Shown here: one piece after another, positions 7,686-44,200 of the stretch
Layout of the letters: each line of letters begins with the position of its first letter
How positions within the stretch are numbered: the first letter of the stretch is position 1
Source of the DNA: Alphaproteobacteria bacterium
GTDB lineage: Bacteria > Pseudomonadota > Alphaproteobacteria > Caulobacterales > Aquidulcibacteraceae
NCBI GenBank assembly: GCA_016124655.1
Contig: WGNI01000005.1
Location: 62,001-126,000, forward strand
Length of the DNA stretch: 64,000 nucleotides
Direction of reading: 5' to 3'
Position numbers and translations under genes: made by a program
Notes under the pieces: generated by a model
Told to the model about the DNA's origin: nothing
Databases searched by the model: none
The model's input: the letters and a program-made list of their open reading frames with translations, nothing else

Positions 7686-8231
7686 TTACGACGTCGGCGT
7701 CGGTTGACGCGGCGCCGGCGCCGGCGCGGGCGCAGGCTCTGGCGCCGCGGCCGTGGTCGGCGGCGGCGTCGCGCCGACATAGCAGCAGCGTACCTGCATT
7801 TCGAGCACGCGCGTATTGAAGCGGCACTCGCTGTCATTGATTTGCCGCAGGATCGAAAGTCCGCCGGCGCTCGAATAATAGCGCGTCTGCACGCAGCTCG
7901 TCAGCGTGTAGCCGTCGCCGCACGAACCGGTGGAGCGGTTGCGAACGGTGCGGGTTTCGCAATTGATGTCGCGCGCCATCGCTTGGTCTGCCGTCGATTG
8001 CGCACGGTCGGCGCGCATGCGGGCGTCGGACGCGACGCCGAACACTTCAGCGATGCGTCCGCTCAACGTGGTGCGGACGTTTTCCGTGTCGCTGTGCTGT
8101 TTGCAGATGTCGTAATTTGCGCGGTCGGGATTGGCGCAATATTCCGCAATGGTTTGATCGCCGGTTCTGTTGGCGCAGGCCGCCGCCGTCGCAGCAAGGC
8201 CGGCAATTGCGACCAGCTTGAAAAAACGCAT
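7686..8231 (-). CDS. Putative lipoprotein of unknown function
   Basis: 181 aa. The signal sequence MRFFKLVAIAGLAATAAACA contains a lipobox-like LATAAAC, so membrane-anchored export is predicted. The middle carries eight or more cysteines (EYCANPD, YDICKQ, NCETRT, SCGDG, SCVQT, ECRFNT, RCCYVG), suggesting disulfides, and the last 30 residues are a Pro/Ala-rich tail. No family was recognised. It faces thpR across the shared terminator and is probably monocistronic. Confidence 0.7.
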   Translation of the reverse strand: MRFFKLVAIAGLAATAAACANRTGDQTIAEYCANPDRANYDICKQHSDTENVRTTLSGRIAEVFGVASDARMRADRAQSTADQAMARDINCETRTVRNRSTGSCGDGYTLTSCVQTRYYSSAGGLSILRQINDSECRFNTRVLEMQVRCCYVGATPPPTTAAAPEPAPAPAPAPRQPTPTS

Positions 8232-8554
8232 CCTGAAACCCTCTCTGAGTGCCCCCGGCGAACCGCTAAGCGCAAGTCGTGCTGTGGGTCAATCCGCGCG
8301 GCGTTAATGTGAAGAATGCGTCATTATTCGCGTAGTTCCGAAAATAACAGCACTATATCGATTTCTGACAAAAGTTTCACGCCCGCGCGCGGTTTTGCAG
8401 CGCCTGTGCGCACCGCCGGACAAGGCGCCATTTGTCAATTCAGTACCGCTTTCCGCAACGGCGAAATGGGCGCGCGCTTGCGCTCGATCGCGGCGCAAAG
8501 GGGTTGTCGAGTCCGGCCCGCGCGCCAACATTATCGACAGTGGAGGTCTTGACG
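8232..8554. other. Intergenic region between divergent envelope-protein genes
   Basis: 323 bp between two divergent small exported-protein genes. The part from about 8305 to 8375 is clearly more AT-rich than its surroundings (TTATTCGCG, AAAATAACAGCACTATATCG) and is the likely promoter zone for one or both. No operator or RNA structure was identified. Confidence 0.4.
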
Positions 8555-8893
8555 ATGCAACGGATTTTCCTCGCGGCGCTGGCTGGCGCGCTGCTTGTTT
8601 CGACCGCCTTCGCACAGGAGGACGCGCCCGCGCCGCCGCCGGTCAATGGCGATGGATCGAGCATCATCGTGCCTGGCGAACGGCCGGGCCCCACGCCGCC
8701 CGCCGATCCGCGCACGACACGCCAGCGCATGCGCGACATCCGCGCCTGGGACCGGTGCGTGATGCAGGTCCAGCGCGCCGCCGACGACGATCCGCTGCGT
8801 CCGCAATTCGAAACTCCGGAAGAACACTGCAGCCAGTCGCTCGGCATGGCCGATCGCTTGTCGGTGCCGATCAGCCGTCAGCTCGCCCGCTGA
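8555..8893 (+). CDS. Small secreted protein of unknown function
   Basis: 112 aa with a clear signal peptide (MQRIFLAALAGALLVSTAFAQ), then a Pro-rich linker and a charged domain with two cysteines (DRCVMQ, EHCSQS). The start is set by the ribosome site GGAGG 9 bp upstream (8542-8546) and by the signal peptide; longer in-frame versions lack both. The last 16 bp overlap the 3' end of the convergent zinc-protease gene. Function unknown. Confidence 0.75.
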   Translation: MQRIFLAALAGALLVSTAFAQEDAPAPPPVNGDGSSIIVPGERPGPTPPADPRTTRQRMRDIRAWDRCVMQVQRAADDDPLRPQFETPEEHCSQSLGMADRLSVPISRQLAR

Positions 8894-9288
8894 TCCGCAG
8901 CGTCGAGCAGCGCGTCCATCGCCTCGTCCGACAACCCGAAATGGTGGCCGATCTCGTGCACCAGCACATGCGCGACCAAGTGGCCGAGATCTTCATCGCC
9001 CCGGTCGATCCATTCCTCAAGGATCGCGCGGCGATACAAGAACACCATCGCCAACTCCGGCGCGGGGTCCGCGATGGAGCGGCGCGTGAGGTCGACGCCG
9101 ACATAAAGGCCCGTGAGATCGAAGGGATCGTCGATCTCAAGATCGCGCAGCGTCTCCTCGTCGGCCAGCTCTTCGATGCGGATCACCACATCGCCCGCGA
9201 GCGTGCGGAACGGCGCCGGAAGGGCCGACCACGCCGCGTGCGCCAAGCGCTCGAAATCGTCGAGGGAAGGGGGAAGATGCACGCCCAT
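8878..9288 (-). CDS. Minimal zincin-like metallopeptidase (DUF1025 type)
   Basis: 136 aa, single domain. The zinc motif HEIGH lies in VLVHEIGHHFGLSDEAMD near the C-terminus; the preceding YRRAILEEW and the wording LTGLYVGVDLTRRS are typical of the small bacterial metallopeptidase family annotated as DUF1025/MMP_TTHA0227-like. No signal peptide, so cytoplasmic. Substrate unknown. The MITE-like element begins only 34 bp upstream of its ATG, so its promoter may lie in or be altered by that element. Confidence 0.85.
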   Translation of the reverse strand: MGVHLPPSLDDFERLAHAAWSALPAPFRTLAGDVVIRIEELADEETLRDLEIDDPFDLTGLYVGVDLTRRSIADPAPELAMVFLYRRAILEEWIDRGDEDLGHLVAHVLVHEIGHHFGLSDEAMDALLDAADQRAS

Positions 9289-9321
9289 GGCGCAGAAGGT
9301 GGCGATGCCGGCCGATCCGGT

Positions 9322-9636
9322 CTAGCAGGCTGCTGAGAAAGTATCGCGGGCCGCGATGCGAGCCGGTTTGTGGTCTGGCCAGGAGGGACGGCGCAGGCGG
9401 GGCGAGCCCCGTCAAGCCGGCCCGACGCAGCCAGAGCGCGAACCGGCCGCACAGGCGGCAGTTCACAACGCTTTGCAATGCATGGCGTTTTCGATTGTAT
9501 CCGATGCGGGGCGCTTTTCCGCTTGGGGTTCGTCGCGCGGCTCGCCAATATCCAGATATTGGCGCCGCCGCGCTTCTGCCCCAATCGAAAAATCGCCGCC
9601 GTCGCGGCTCACGAGACTTTCTCAGCAGCCTGCTAG
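9322..9636. mobile_element. MITE-like non-autonomous element with perfect terminal inverted repeats
   Basis: A 21-bp sequence starting CTAGCAGGCTGCTGAG at 9322-9342 recurs as an exact reverse complement at 9616-9636. The match continues imperfectly inward for about 16 more bp. CTAG at both outer edges could be a 4-bp target duplication or part of the repeat. The interior (about 270 bp) encodes no transposase; it has an inner 9-bp palindrome (9544-9552 / 9555-9563). An open frame runs through it and ends ETFSAAC-stop inside the right end, as expected of an end sequence that merely happens to translate. Inferred to be mobilised in trans by an IS not in this window. Confidence 0.8.
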
Positions 9637-9691
9637 GCCGCCGCGCAATGACCGCATTTCCGCGCTTCACTCGCGCGTGCAGGAGAGCCGC

Positions 9692-10777
9692 ATGAAGGGC
9701 GAACGCTGGGCTTGGATCGGCGGCGGCATCGTCGCTGGCGCGCTGGCCGCGCTGGTGCTGCAGCCGCTCGTGCCCGCGCCGACCGAGGCGCAAGGGCCGG
9801 CGACGCTGCGCCAGGCCGCGGTGCGCGGCGCGTTCTCCGCCTCCGAGCAATCGACGATCCGGATTTTCGAAGCCGCCGCGCCGTCGGTGGTGCAGGTGGT
9901 GCAGGTCGCCCAGTCCCTGGCGGGCATCGAGGCGGTCGGTTCGGGCAGCGGCTTTGTCTGGGATTCAAGCGGCCACATCGTCACCAACGCGCACGTCGTC
10001 GGCGACGCCAACATCGTTCTGGTGCGTCTGGTCAGCGGGGAAACTCTGCGCGCGAATGTCGTCGGTCGCGCGCCCAATTACGATATCGCCGTCATTCGGC
10101 TTGACGGCGCCCGCACCTTGCCCCCGCCGGCCGCGATTGGCGCCTCGACCACGCTGCAGGTCGGCCAGGCGACGTTCGCGATTGGCAATCCGTTCGGCCT
10201 CGACCACACCCTGACGACCGGCGTTATCTCCGCGCTGGAGCGTCGCCTGCCGACCAGCTCGGGCCGCGAAATCGCCAACGTCATCCAGACCGACGCGGCC
10301 ATCAATCCCGGCAATTCCGGCGGCCCGCTCCTGGACAGCGCCGGCCGCGTGATCGGCGTGAACTCGGCGATTTTCTCGCCTTCCGGCGCCTATGCCGGCA
10401 TCGGCTTCGCGATCCCGATCGACACCGTCAATCGCGTCGCCACGGAGTTGATCCGCTCCGGGCGCGTGCCCACGCCCGGCATCGGCATCATCGCAGCGGA
10501 TGAGAGCGTGTCCGCGCGGCTGGGGTTGGAGGGGATCATCATCTACGGGGTGCAGCCGGGCTCGGCCGCCGCCCGCTCAGGCCTGCGCGGCACTGACGTC
10601 CGTCGCGGCGTGCTGGGCGATGTGATCACCCAGGTCAATGGCCAGCCCGTGCGTCGCCTGGCGGACTTCACCAACGCGCTGGAGACCGCGGGCATCGGCC
10701 AGACGGTCGCGCTCTCGGTTCTGCGCAACAACCGGCCCACCGAATTGCGCGTGCGCGTGGAGGATGTTGGAGATTAG
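9692..10777 (+). CDS. HtrA/DegP-type periplasmic serine protease with one PDZ domain
   Basis: 361 aa, S1C family. An N-terminal membrane anchor (WAWIGGGIVAGALAALVLQP, residues 6-25) exports the trypsin-like domain, whose triad is His101 (VTNAHVV), Asp131 (NYDIAVI) and Ser209 (NPGNSGGP). A single PDZ domain occupies about residues 265-360, so it resembles DegS rather than two-PDZ DegP. The start at 9692 has AGGAGA 6 bp upstream; the frame is also open through the MITE-like element, but that reading lacks a ribosome site. Expected roles are periplasmic protein quality control or regulated cleavage of an anti-sigma factor; neither can be told apart here. Confidence 0.9.
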   Translation: MKGERWAWIGGGIVAGALAALVLQPLVPAPTEAQGPATLRQAAVRGAFSASEQSTIRIFEAAAPSVVQVVQVAQSLAGIEAVGSGSGFVWDSSGHIVTNAHVVGDANIVLVRLVSGETLRANVVGRAPNYDIAVIRLDGARTLPPPAAIGASTTLQVGQATFAIGNPFGLDHTLTTGVISALERRLPTSSGREIANVIQTDAAINPGNSGGPLLDSAGRVIGVNSAIFSPSGAYAGIGFAIPIDTVNRVATELIRSGRVPTPGIGIIAADESVSARLGLEGIIIYGVQPGSAAARSGLRGTDVRRGVLGDVITQVNGQPVRRLADFTNALETAGIGQTVALSVLRNNRPTELRVRVEDVGD

Positions 10778-39158: not shown

Positions 39159-39235
39159 GGCTCCGTAGCTCAGCTGGATAGAGCGGCTCCGTCCTAAGGA
39201 GATGGTCGCAGGTTCGAATCCTGCCGGGGTCGCCA
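39159..39235 (+). tRNA. tRNA-Arg (anticodon CCT)
   Basis: 77 nt including an encoded CCA. The acceptor stem pairs GGCTCCG with CGGGGTC (two G-U type pairs), the D arm is GCTC/GAGC, the anticodon loop GTCCTAA gives CCT at 39193-39195, and the T arm GCAGG-TTCGAAT-CCTGC is perfect. It reads AGG codons. The discriminator is G. Confidence 0.95.
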
Positions 39236-39261: not shown

Positions 39262-41169
39262 ATGCGGTCGCACGCCAATTTCTGGTCCCGCGCGTCGGGC
39301 GGGTTGATGGTCTGGAGCCACATGCGCGCCGCTGGCTTGAAGTGGGGCGTGCTGTTCTTGCTGGCGTTGGTCTGGCTGATCGCGGGCTATCTCGGCTTCG
39401 TGGAATTGCTGCGCACGGAGAACGCCGCCGAGCCGGCCGCGGAGGCGGTCTATCGCACGCTGGGCGGGATCGCCTCGTCGGACGTGTTCTTCAATCCGCC
39501 GAATGCCTTGCTCGAGATTTCCCGCTTTGCCGGCTTGGCCGTGCCGGTGATCGGCCTGGTCTTCACCTTCTCCGGCGAACTTGGACGCTCGCTCGCGCGC
39601 GTGTTTTTCGCAGGCGCATCCAATCACATTGTCATCGCCGGCGACGACCCGCCCGCGGTGTCGCTGGCGCAGGATTGCGCCGCCCATCGCGACAGTGTGG
39701 TGATCATCGGTCAGCACTTCACGGAAGAGACGGCCTGGGCCATGCGCCGCCACGGCGTGACCGTGGTCGAAGGCGACGCCGGCCAAAGCCACACGCTGCG
39801 CGCAGCGCGCGCGCATCGCGCCTCGCACGTCGTCGCCATGGAGCAGCTCGACACAACCAATCTGCAGGTGGAGGCAGCGCTCCTGCGCCTGGCCCAGGAT
39901 GAAAAGCCCCGCCGCCTGATCCATGCCCATATCGGCACGCGCGCGCCAATGTTGTTGAAGGAAGCGCGCGAAATGTGCGCCCACGTCATGCGCAAGCACG
40001 AAGCGAAGGTGAAGCGCGCGCAGGAGCGCAAGCGTCGCCCGCCGCGGCTTTATGTCGATCCGATGCCGTTTTCGCTGGACGAACTCGCCGCGCGCTGTCT
40101 CGCGCAAACCGAGTCCACGACGATCATGGATGTCGCCGAACAGCTCGGCCATCCGCGCCTGCACCTGATGGTGTTCGGCTATGATGAAGCCGGCGACGCC
40201 TTGGCCGCGCGCATGCTGATGAGCGCGTGGTCTGCGCGTTTCGGCGCCCCGCGCATCACCTTCGTCACCCCGGATCCCGCGCGCGATCAGGCGCGTTTTC
40301 AAACCCGCTATCCCGAAGCCTTCGCGCACCCGCATCTGTGGGCGGCCGACGTGGCGTTCCTGCCCTTCGATTGGCTGGGCGAAGCGATCAATCCAGCGCT
40401 GCTGCAGCGCCTGCAGGAGGCGAGGGGCCAGCCTTCCGCGATCATCGTCTCGACGGGGTCCGACAGCGACAATATCCAGCTTGCGCTGTCTTTGAAGCGC
40501 ATCTGCAATCAAGGCTATGCCTGGCCCGCGCCGATCTTCATGAAAGAAGCCAGCCGCTCGGAGTTTTCCCAGCAATACGCCAAGGGCGACGAAACCGAGG
40601 AATTGGACGCTTACCTGCAGGCCTTCGGCGCGCATCAGCAGATCGCAACGCGGGACTACATCATTCTCGGCATGCTCGATCGCGGCGCCGCCATCGCGCA
40701 CGAGCACTACAACAAGCAGATCGCCGACCACGACGCGATGAGCCTGAAGGATTTGCAGGCCGCGATGAAGCACTGGTCCGATGTGCTGGAGACGTATCGC
40801 GCAGCCAACCGCGCCGTCGCGGACGCAGCCCTGATCAAATTATGGGACGCCGGCTGGCGCCCTGCGCGCAAGGGCGAAGACGGCGAAACCGAAGTGCGTT
40901 TGCCCGATGAAGTGGTGCAGCGGCTTTCGGAAGTGGAGCATTGCCGCTGGATGGCGGAACGCTTGATGGCGGGCTGGCGACCCGGCGAACAGCGCAGCAA
41001 TGAGCTTATGGTGCACAACCAGCTCAAACCTTGGAGCGCGCTGTCGCAGGCGGAAAAGGACAAGGACGCAGCCCAGGTGCGCGCGTCGGTGGATATTGCG
41101 CGGCTCCTACATCCCGCCGGTTTCGTGCGCCGCGAAGTCAAAGGTCAGGTGCGGCCAGCCGCAGCGTGA
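39262..41169 (+). CDS. Two-TM protein with two TrkA-N/RCK-like Rossmann domains and a C-terminal RyR domain
   Basis: 635 aa. Helix TM1 is about residues 28-50 and TM2 about 86-108, joined by a 35-residue loop without a TVGYG-type filter. TM2 runs directly into a TrkA-N-like Rossmann domain (122-215: NHIVIAGDD, VVIIG, VVEGDAGQSHTLRAA, HVVAMEQLDTTN). A second Rossmann-like unit follows (299-435: LMVFGYDEAGDAL, SAIIVSTGSDSDN). The C-terminus (550-625) matches the ryanodine-receptor RyR repeat: VEHCRWMAERLMAGWRPGEQRSNE...LKPWSAL...EKDKD. The architecture suggests a nucleotide- or ligand-gated membrane protein. The ATG at 39262 is preferred; 39307 and 39322 are alternatives. It starts 26 bp after tRNA-Arg. 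Confidence 0.82.
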   Translation: MRSHANFWSRASGGLMVWSHMRAAGLKWGVLFLLALVWLIAGYLGFVELLRTENAAEPAAEAVYRTLGGIASSDVFFNPPNALLEISRFAGLAVPVIGLVFTFSGELGRSLARVFFAGASNHIVIAGDDPPAVSLAQDCAAHRDSVVIIGQHFTEETAWAMRRHGVTVVEGDAGQSHTLRAARAHRASHVVAMEQLDTTNLQVEAALLRLAQDEKPRRLIHAHIGTRAPMLLKEAREMCAHVMRKHEAKVKRAQERKRRPPRLYVDPMPFSLDELAARCLAQTESTTIMDVAEQLGHPRLHLMVFGYDEAGDALAARMLMSAWSARFGAPRITFVTPDPARDQARFQTRYPEAFAHPHLWAADVAFLPFDWLGEAINPALLQRLQEARGQPSAIIVSTGSDSDNIQLALSLKRICNQGYAWPAPIFMKEASRSEFSQQYAKGDETEELDAYLQAFGAHQQIATRDYIILGMLDRGAAIAHEHYNKQIADHDAMSLKDLQAAMKHWSDVLETYRAANRAVADAALIKLWDAGWRPARKGEDGETEVRLPDEVVQRLSEVEHCRWMAERLMAGWRPGEQRSNELMVHNQLKPWSALSQAEKDKDAAQVRASVDIARLLHPAGFVRREVKGQVRPAAA

Positions 41170-41203
41170 ACTCTTCGGCCGCACGCGCACGAAAGGAAAA
41201 CAC

Positions 41204-41605
41204 ATGGAGCGCTACGCCGGCGGATGTCAGTGCGGGTCGGTGCGATTTGTCGCCGCCGGCCATCCCGACCGCGTGGGCCTGTGTCATTGCCTGGATTGCC
41301 GCAAGCATCATGGCGCGCTGTTTCATGCCTCCGCGGTGTATCCGCGCGACGCCGTGACGATTGAGGGCGAAACGCGGGACTATGCCGGGCGGCATTTCTG
41401 CCCGCGATGCGGATCCTCGGTCTTTTCGCGGTCCGGCGATGAAGTCGAAATTCATCTCGGCGCCCTCGATGCGCCCAATCAATTCACGCCGAGCTACGAA
41501 CTCTGGACGATCCGCCGCGAATCCTGGCTGCCGGACTTTCCAAACCTCGCGCGGCATGCGCGCGATCGCGAACCGCAAGAGCCGTCCGTCAACGCTGACG
41601 TCTAA
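41204..41605 (+). CDS. GFA (Mss4-like zinc fold) family protein
   Basis: 133 aa. Zinc-binding cysteines GGCQCGSV, CHCLDCRK and FCPRCGS are those of the GFA family, named after a glutathione-dependent formaldehyde-activating enzyme whose catalytic role is disputed. AAAGGA precedes the ATG. Its 3' end overlaps selO by 4 bp convergently. The reaction is unknown. Confidence 0.9.
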   Translation: MERYAGGCQCGSVRFVAAGHPDRVGLCHCLDCRKHHGALFHASAVYPRDAVTIEGETRDYAGRHFCPRCGSSVFSRSGDEVEIHLGALDAPNQFTPSYELWTIRRESWLPDFPNLARHARDREPQEPSVNADV

Positions 41606-43126: not shown

Positions 43127-44200
43127 ATGGCCCGATGGCGGTTGGTTTTGGTCGCGTTTTCGGCGCTGGGCGCGACCTCGGCGTGCGGGCGCGAGCCGCC
43201 GCCGCCGGCGGCTGCGCCGACCGGGGCTGAGGGCGTCGCCGCCGCGCTGAATGTCTGCGACGAGAGCGCGGCCTCGTATGAACGCGCGGTGTGCGCCACC
43301 CCGGCGATGGTCGATCTGAACGCGCAGATCAGCCGCGCGCTCGTCGCGGAGGCGGAATCCGTCTCCGACGAGGGCGCGCAATTGCTGATCCAGAACCAGC
43401 GCCGCTGGCTGGCCGCCCAACGCATCGCCTGCGGCGTCATCGATCCCGCAGCCGAGCTCACGGCCGAGCAGTCGCAATGCCTGGAAAGCAAGCTGCGCGA
43501 GCGCGCGCAGCAGGCGACCGCCGCTGTCAGCGAGGCGGGCGGCTACACCTTCCAAACCGTCGAAGTGACCGACGCGCAGACGTTGAGCGCTGAAACCGCC
43601 GCCGCCACCGGGCTTGGCGACGCCGCGCCGCCCGCGGTGGGGCGCGACATCCGCTATCCCCGCATCGACAACGCCAACACGCCGCAACTGCAGCGCTTCA
43701 ATCAATTGGTCGCGCAGCAGCCGCAATATCGCCTGGAGGACGCCACCGAAGAGCAGGTCAATTACCAGATCGCCTTCGCCGGCCCTGAACTGATTTCGGT
43801 GCGGTTCGATCTGTATGAAAACGCGTTGGGCGCGGCCCACCCCAACACCGACTTCAAGGCCGTCACCGTGGACATGCGCACCGGCCAGCCGCTCGCAGCG
43901 GCCTCCGTGTTCCGCGAAGGCTCCGGCTGGGAGCGCTATCTCACCACGCGCGCGATGGCGGCGCTGACCGCGCAATTCCGCGACCAGGGCTTCCGCCCGC
44001 CGCAAAGCGATGTGCGCGATACCGTCACCAAGCCGCAATTCTGGCTCATCACGCAGGACGCGCTGGTGCTGCTCTTCCCGCCATTGACCTTCGGCGGGGC
44101 CGGTGCGCTCGGCGGCGCCGAAGTCAGACTGCCTTGGTCGGACCTTGAGCGCTACATCAGCCCCGAAGCGCCGGCGCCCATCCGCCGCACCGAAGCGTGA
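43127..44200 (+). CDS. Lipoprotein with LprI-like and DUF3298 domains
   Basis: 357 aa. MARWRLVLVAFSALGATSACG carries a lipobox (TSAC). Residues about 38-130 resemble the LprI/DUF1311 segment (CDESAASYERAVCATPAMVDLNAQIS...QNQRRWLAAQRIACG). The C-terminal half (HPNTDFKAVTVDMRTGQPLAAASVF ... LFPPLTFGGAGALGGAEVRLPWSDL) fits DUF3298, found in RsiV-type lysozyme-binding proteins. A role in sensing or inhibiting a cell-wall enzyme is possible but not shown. Its stop overlaps the SDR start (GTGA). Confidence 0.8.
   Translation: MARWRLVLVAFSALGATSACGREPPPPAAAPTGAEGVAAALNVCDESAASYERAVCATPAMVDLNAQISRALVAEAESVSDEGAQLLIQNQRRWLAAQRIACGVIDPAAELTAEQSQCLESKLRERAQQATAAVSEAGGYTFQTVEVTDAQTLSAETAAATGLGDAAPPAVGRDIRYPRIDNANTPQLQRFNQLVAQQPQYRLEDATEEQVNYQIAFAGPELISVRFDLYENALGAAHPNTDFKAVTVDMRTGQPLAAASVFREGSGWERYLTTRAMAALTAQFRDQGFRPPQSDVRDTVTKPQFWLITQDALVLLFPPLTFGGAGALGGAEVRLPWSDLERYISPEAPAPIRRTEA

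Follow-up and report, generated by a model that had tools for sequence, protein, structure and literature searches.

The closest described counterparts of the protein analyzed here are RyDEP, the two-transmembrane SLATT effectors (PMC9503650) and the Thoeris systems of types I and II (PMC12948488). RyDEP and other phage RyR-domain proteins bind or cleave 2'/3'cADPR through residues H75, W78, H100 and D117 (PMC13232231). SLATT proteins are two-helix (2TM) proteins linked to TIR genes and predicted to be ADPr-regulated membrane effectors (PMC9503650). In Thoeris a TIR gene is paired with an effector gene; effectors of types I and II use SIR2-SLOG or macro domains, and type II has a membrane effector reading an ADPR signal (PMC12948488). 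Among channels, GsuK (PDB 4gx0-4gx5) opens with ADP and NAD+ (PMC3510474), and the Ca2+ channel CASTOR has a tandem-RCK ring (PMC6697748). In ryanodine receptors a tandem RyR arrangement forms a nucleotide clamshell, and W881, R885 and R896 of the RyR3/RyR1 R12 unit contact AMP-PCP or ADP, followed by closure (PMC12627627).

The protein described below, henceforth referred to as P0001, is encoded in the window, the whole 64-kb stretch of DNA that was analyzed. It has the RyR domain and, at identical spacing, the H/W/H/D pocket of RyDEP and the phage RyR sponges (PMC13232231), but it is a host membrane protein, whereas RyDEP is soluble, comes from a phage and destroys or sequesters the signal. 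With animal R12 (PDB 6uhi, 9l90; PMC12627627) it shares predicted tandem RyR repeats and conserved adenine-nucleotide contacts, although a ryanodine receptor has about 5000 residues with SPRY, RIH and 6TM pore parts and P0001 is a protein of 635 residues without these parts. The plan of two TM helices and a dual RCK-type ring is that of GsuK, which unlike P0001 has a K+ filter and NAD/ADP sites in its RCKs, and has no RyR domain (PMC3510474). The tandem RCK gating ring recurs in CASTOR and DMI1, which differ in having another TM part, Ca2+ sites and no RyR domain (PMC6697748). SLATT proteins resemble the P0001 family in their two TM helices, TIR linkage and predicted role, but are without RCK or RyR domains (PMC9503650). 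Relatives of P0001 form TIR-effector gene pairs as Thoeris does, with an adjacent TIR gene at L196-L199, L041, L093 and L096, whereas the window copy has none.

What is new here is the RyR tandem, the RyDEP-type pocket at identical spacing in a protein that has lost its NAD signatures, and the TIR linkage of relatives. No description of TIR-linked RyR-RCK membrane proteins was found in the open literature searched; a 2025 preprint on TIR systems may cover such effectors.

Domain architecture of P0001

The open reading frame lies where the sequence-only reading had placed it, and the motifs quoted there (EHCRWMAE, GWRPGE, LKPWSAL and EKDKD) are all present in the protein. An in-frame ATG is found upstream at 39202; homologues start at, or a few codons ahead of, the position that corresponds to 39262. 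The features of the locus are as follows.

39159..39235, + strand: tRNA-Arg(CCT), a conserved neighbor, 26 bp upstream of the P0001 open reading frame
39262..41169, + strand: coding sequence of the 2TM-RCK-RCK-RyR(tandem) membrane protein P0001, 635 aa, ATG start
39331..39417, + strand: TM1, residues 24-52 (AlphaFold2 model, hydropathy)
39436..39474, + strand: short helix at the pore-helix position, residues 59-71, EAVYRTLGGIASS region, without a TVGYG filter (alignment, model)
39505..39612, + strand: TM2, residues 82-117, continuing into the cytosolic part (hydropathy, AlphaFold2 model)
39622..39936, + strand: Rossmann/RCK-like unit 1, residues 121-225, with a degenerate NAD signature (PF02254, model, residue counts)
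40150..40632, + strand: Rossmann/RCK-like unit 2, residues 297-457, with GYDEAG instead of GxGxxG (model, hhalign, residue counts)
40669..40857, + strand: cryptic RyR repeat A, residues about 470-532, with H480..Y483, W505 and N516 R517 (hhalign, L089 model, alignment)
40906..41130, + strand: RyR repeat B, PF02026, residues 549-623 (Pfam, AlphaFold2 model)
40939..41067, + strand: predicted ligand pocket H560, W563, R567, R578, H585 and D602 (RyDEP/RyR residue spacing, clade invariance)

The RyR and TrkA-N domains proposed from the letters alone were recovered by HMM search above the curated cut-offs: PF02026 (RyR) matches residues 549-610 (E 1.2e-9, 38.7 bits against a cut-off of 27.4) and PF02254 (TrkA_N) matches residues 124-213 (E 6.3e-9, 36.6 bits against a cut-off of 23.8). 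The only other Pfam match is a sub-threshold Slo-like_RCK. In a sample of 17 family members, RyR was matched in all 17 and TrkA_N in 16. The AlphaFold2 model, built on an alignment of 37 sequences, has a mean pLDDT of 91.4 and a pTM of 0.88, and it contains the two membrane helices, the passage of TM2 into a Rossmann domain and the second Rossmann-like unit that had been anticipated. A long helix at residues 229-255 lies between the two Rossmann units. Unit 2 has no Pfam match; its hhalign probability against unit 1 is 90-94%.

The RyR tandem and its predicted ligand pocket

The RyR block noted earlier is real, but the sequence-only reading missed a cryptic first repeat at about residues 470-532. 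Residues 466-536 and 546-626 align with each other at an hhalign probability of 81% (alignment A3) or 94% (alignment A5), while controls setting both segments against other parts of P0001 gave 2% or less. In the alignment, H480..Y483, W505 and N516-R517 of repeat A correspond to H560..W563, W591 and D602 of repeat B. The model of the distant homologue L089 aligns with RyR R12 structures over 157-161 residues (Z 15.1-15.6). By these profile and model comparisons, the C-terminal part of P0001 is predicted to be an R12-like tandem in which the cryptic repeat precedes the Pfam match.

Residues H75, W78, H100 and D117 of RyDEP correspond to H560, W563, H585 and D602 of P0001 with identical spacing, at a constant offset of 485. 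W881, R885 and R896 of R12 align with W563, R567 and R578 in the alignment to the R1 repeat. All six residues are invariant in the clade of the window copy (23/23) and mostly retained in the 14 distant homologues counted, the equivalents of H560, W563, H585 and D602 in 12-14 of them. The RyDEP-type ligand residues are conserved across PF02026 generally (PMC13232231); they thus argue for an adenine or ADPR-type ligand and fix neither which one nor cleavage. We consider with fair confidence that the RyR unit of P0001 binds an adenine or ADPR-class nucleotide.

Gene neighborhoods of the wider family

Among the 25 TM-RyR loci of the discovery set, a TIR gene was present in 5, compared with 0.55 expected from TIR density (P 1.3e-4). 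TIR genes lie beside or a few genes from the 2TM-RCK-RyR gene at L041, L039, L093, L096 and L098; at L091 a TIR gene lies beside a NUDIX-RyR gene. An independent set was assembled from RyR loci in profile scans of 398 Pseudomonadota and 296 Bacteroidota genomes. The survey of homologue neighborhoods that had been suggested earlier found TIR genes next to 2TM-RCK-RyR genes elsewhere, and 6 of the 11 TM-RCK-RyR loci of the independent set contain a TIR gene (expected 0.16, P 5.8e-10), the effective number of independent loci being smaller because L198 and L199 are close relatives and the TIR frame of L199 is interrupted. The TIR genes of both sets were confirmed by Pfam. At L196-L199, of which L196 and L197 come from Bacteroidota, TIR and RyR share a strand in tight operons, with a spacing of -52 to +21 bp from one open frame to the other, and in genome G678 the single TIR gene in 3.3 Mb is the one adjoining its RyR gene. 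Since relatives are repeatedly found beside TIR genes, P0001 is probably a membrane switch for ADP-ribose-class signals.

RyR domains also occur fused to other partners, namely RelA/SpoT with TPR and SLOG (L085, L092), guanylate cyclase (L087), NUDIX (L091) and patatin (L099). A cassette of NUDIX, 2TM-RCK-RCK-RyR and RelA/SpoT-RyR genes is present in two phyla (L084:2732-7679, L089:5289-10400), and the remark in the sequence-only reading that bacterial RyR domains belong to signaling or conflict proteins is well supported for the wider family by its TIR, RelA/SpoT, SLOG, NUDIX and patatin partners. PADLOC defense models gave no match to P0001 at E 1 or below.

These fusions and the cassette favor a reading of P0001 as a stress-responsive rather than TIR-responsive switch, with an RyR unit that responds to a different nucleotide, for example an alarmone of the RelA/SpoT type or a NUDIX substrate; in addition, the genome of L084 (G451) is without any TIR. 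However, the equivalents of H585 and/or D602 are often changed in such proteins (S and N in L089, S/T in RelA-RyR), whereas the clade of the window copy and the TIR-linked members keep H and D, and TIR linkage is the commoner association. An alarmone or NUDIX-substrate sensor is therefore considered unlikely.

Several of these neighborhoods are of interest in their own right. The NUDIX/2TM-RCK-RCK-RyR/RelA-SpoT-RyR cassette is a candidate nucleotide-signaling module. At L092 and L095, RelA/SpoT-RyR genes stand beside DUF4062-NACHT STAND NTPases, with a SLOG match in L092. L099:4441-6171 encodes a patatin-like phospholipase with a C-terminal RyR domain that resembles a CBASS-style effector with RyR as its sensor, and a TIR gene lies nearby at 8105-10129.

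Inheritance of the window copy

Full-length orthologues of P0001 were found in 16 of 60 sampled relatives, 15 at 47-57% identity and one at 36%. A profile search of genome contigs also recovered them in many Caulobacterales/Hyphomonadaceae MAGs; those matches came from an alignment of close relatives, while a single-protein query gave none and a broad alignment was without a usable stretch. Flags of one internal stop on most orthologues were merely terminal stops before a ragged C-terminus. The orthologues mostly adjoin SelO, a conserved hypothetical gene (the gene at 43127 in the window) and tRNA-Arg(CCT), and the gene tree places P0001 inside this Caulobacterales clade with support 100/98. 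Genomes G034 and G007 retain PhoX, SelO and tRNA-Arg, with exactly the RyR gene missing at the PhoX/tRNA-Arg junction, a pattern that reads as loss. No second copy of the tRNA end, of the kind expected for an att-like repeat, was present elsewhere in the 64-kb window, and tblastn of P0001 against plasmids and phages gave no match. The suggestion that a position 26 bp behind a tRNA gene reflects insertion is thus unsupported: conserved synteny, the missing tRNA-end repeat and the two clean losses all speak against insertion at tRNA-Arg. Judged from synteny and the gene tree, the window copy is vertically inherited in Caulobacterales.

In most relatives a PhoX alkaline phosphatase gene lies between the RyR gene and SelO (for example L027:10282-12336); the window has a GFA-family gene (41170-41604) where most relatives have PhoX.

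The genome of P0001 (G000, 2.9 Mb) contains 21 TIR_2 matches (for example L144-L151). Many of its TIR proteins consist of an N-terminal TIR, one TM helix and a further domain, and a similar expansion is seen in sister genera. The number of TIRs per genome is 12-25 where the orthologue is present (median 18, n=17) and 0-13 where it is absent (median 1, n=44). In the carrying clade TPR repeats, taken as a control family, are likewise about threefold more numerous than in the rest of the family (median 13.5 vs 4); because of this parallel rise and of phylogeny, the correlation of TIR number with the orthologue is confounded and lends weak support at most. No TIR gene was found in the 64-kb window or within tens of kilobases of the window copy, nor adjacent to any of its syntenic relatives. 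Given this and the vertical inheritance, the role of the window copy itself is one that we infer.

Housekeeping synteny and the lack of a defense-island context would suit a physiological membrane protein that Caulobacterales inherit vertically and that serves some unrelated role, its conserved pocket holding ATP or ADP constitutively as an energy sensor, and RyR R12 does bind ATP analogues. This explanation is improbable in our judgment: retention is patchy, the two genomes with clean losses (G007 and G034) have the fewest TIRs in their genus samples, and the wider family is strongly linked to TIR genes.

Membrane part and Rossmann units

The closest PDB match to the P0001 model is the dual-RCK K+ channel GsuK (Z 19.1, residues 24-512 aligned), followed by the gating rings of MtDMI1 (Z 18.6) and LjCASTOR (Z 17.1), the latter two with an rmsd of 3.2-3.8 over 301-322 residues, and then by TrkA and KtrA. 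The L089 model (pLDDT 83.7) returned the same list of PDB matches. The earlier description of a nucleotide-linked membrane protein with an RCK or gating-ring architecture agrees with these matches.

The TM1-TM2 stretch of the family contains a conserved '(D/E)AxY' helix and then an Arg, which line up in register with the K+ channel pore helix and the Arg behind the filter, and the model places the short helix 59-71 at the pore-helix position. Compared by profile with K+ channel pores, the TM region gives a weak match (hhalign probability about 2%, P about 0.03). Neither TVGYG nor another known K+ selectivity filter is present in P0001 or the family alignment, and Ion_trans_2 (PF07885) gave no match in 17 family members, in line with the absence of such a filter proposed earlier. 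With a weak profile match and no TVGYG, it is plausible only that P0001 forms a pore. In Bacteroidales, the RyR proteins at L096, L098 and L103 have another TM part, whose LDPG/SSPG-like loops are reminiscent of CASTOR-type channels; L096 and L098 are located in TIR clusters.

The acidic residue after beta-2 of Rossmann unit 1 is found in 0/23 members of the clade of the window copy vs 6/14 distant homologues, and that of unit 2 in 0/23 vs 11/14. In the Gly motif of unit 2, the central position holds Asp in 23/23 clade members, where 12/14 distant homologues have Gly. From these counts, the ancestral NAD-type sites appear to have decayed in this clade while the RyR pocket stayed. This argues against gating of P0001 by NAD(H) through its RCK units, and the earlier claim of NAD(H) gating via the Rossmann units is unsupported.

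The same evidence bears on the alternative that P0001 is a conventional K+ channel of the RCK type, or a Trk-like subunit, with NAD(H) or ADP gating it at the Rossmann sites and the RyR domain as an accessory. The nearest solved folds, GsuK and TrkA, bind NAD, ADP or ATP, and distant homologues such as L077 and L089 retain a canonical GxGxxG and acid. Such a channel is nevertheless quite improbable, since a known filter and any Ion_trans_2 match are missing, the 23 clade members all lack the NAD signatures yet share an invariant RyR pocket, and a separate true K+ channel is encoded in the genome.

Discussion

The reading that we tentatively prefer, at slightly less than an even chance in its full form, is that P0001 is a ligand-switched membrane effector whose RyR unit senses an ADP-ribose-class nucleotide, probably made by a TIR protein. 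By analogy with GsuK and CASTOR, it would be built like a two-helix channel, as a tetramer whose RCK-type ring lies beneath a pore-like part with two TM helices per subunit. The tandem RyR unit at the C-terminus would be the receptor and would act as R12 does in ryanodine receptors: its clamshell would close on an adenine-containing nucleotide of the ADP-ribose class lodged between W563/R567/R578 and H560/H585/D602. Through the RCK ring this closure may reach the TM helices and open a pore that is not K+-selective, or perturb the membrane in another way, presumably with defense as the outcome. In the wider family the signal would likely come from the neighboring TIR protein. The window copy is an orphan in a TIR-rich member of the Caulobacterales, and for it one of the roughly 20 TIR proteins of the genome may act in trans.

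That the RyR unit is instead a membrane hydrolase of cADPR-type signals, ending signaling as RyDEP does rather than executing it, is very improbable: the catalytic H75 and D117 of RyDEP have exact counterparts in H560 and D602, but other phage homologues that were tested did not cleave despite high conservation, 6/8 binding the signals (PMC13232231), and a hydrolase has no need of a TM pore helix or a dual RCK ring.

The switched-effector reading can be extended, although the extension is doubtful. In it, 2TM-RCK-RCK-RyR proteins would be host receptors and pore-forming effectors for TIR-made cADPR signals, phages would have taken the RyR module as sponges or degraders (RyDEP), and in the clade of the window copy the NAD sites would have decayed to leave the RyR tandem as sole sensor. 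If true, these proteins would be a prokaryotic counterpart of the proposed cADPR-gated ryanodine receptor and a host-side partner for a phage anti-immunity domain described only in May 2026. A channel-like effector class would be added to TIR signaling, and the long debate on a direct action of cADPR on the RyR module would gain a small bacterial system, for which concrete operons are available (L196, L197 and L198).

In viral contigs, RyR matches were found only in small soluble proteins. Three IMG/VR contigs (L104, L105 and L106) encode a 210-aa soluble phage RyR-domain protein, which is likely a RyDEP-type sponge or hydrolase.
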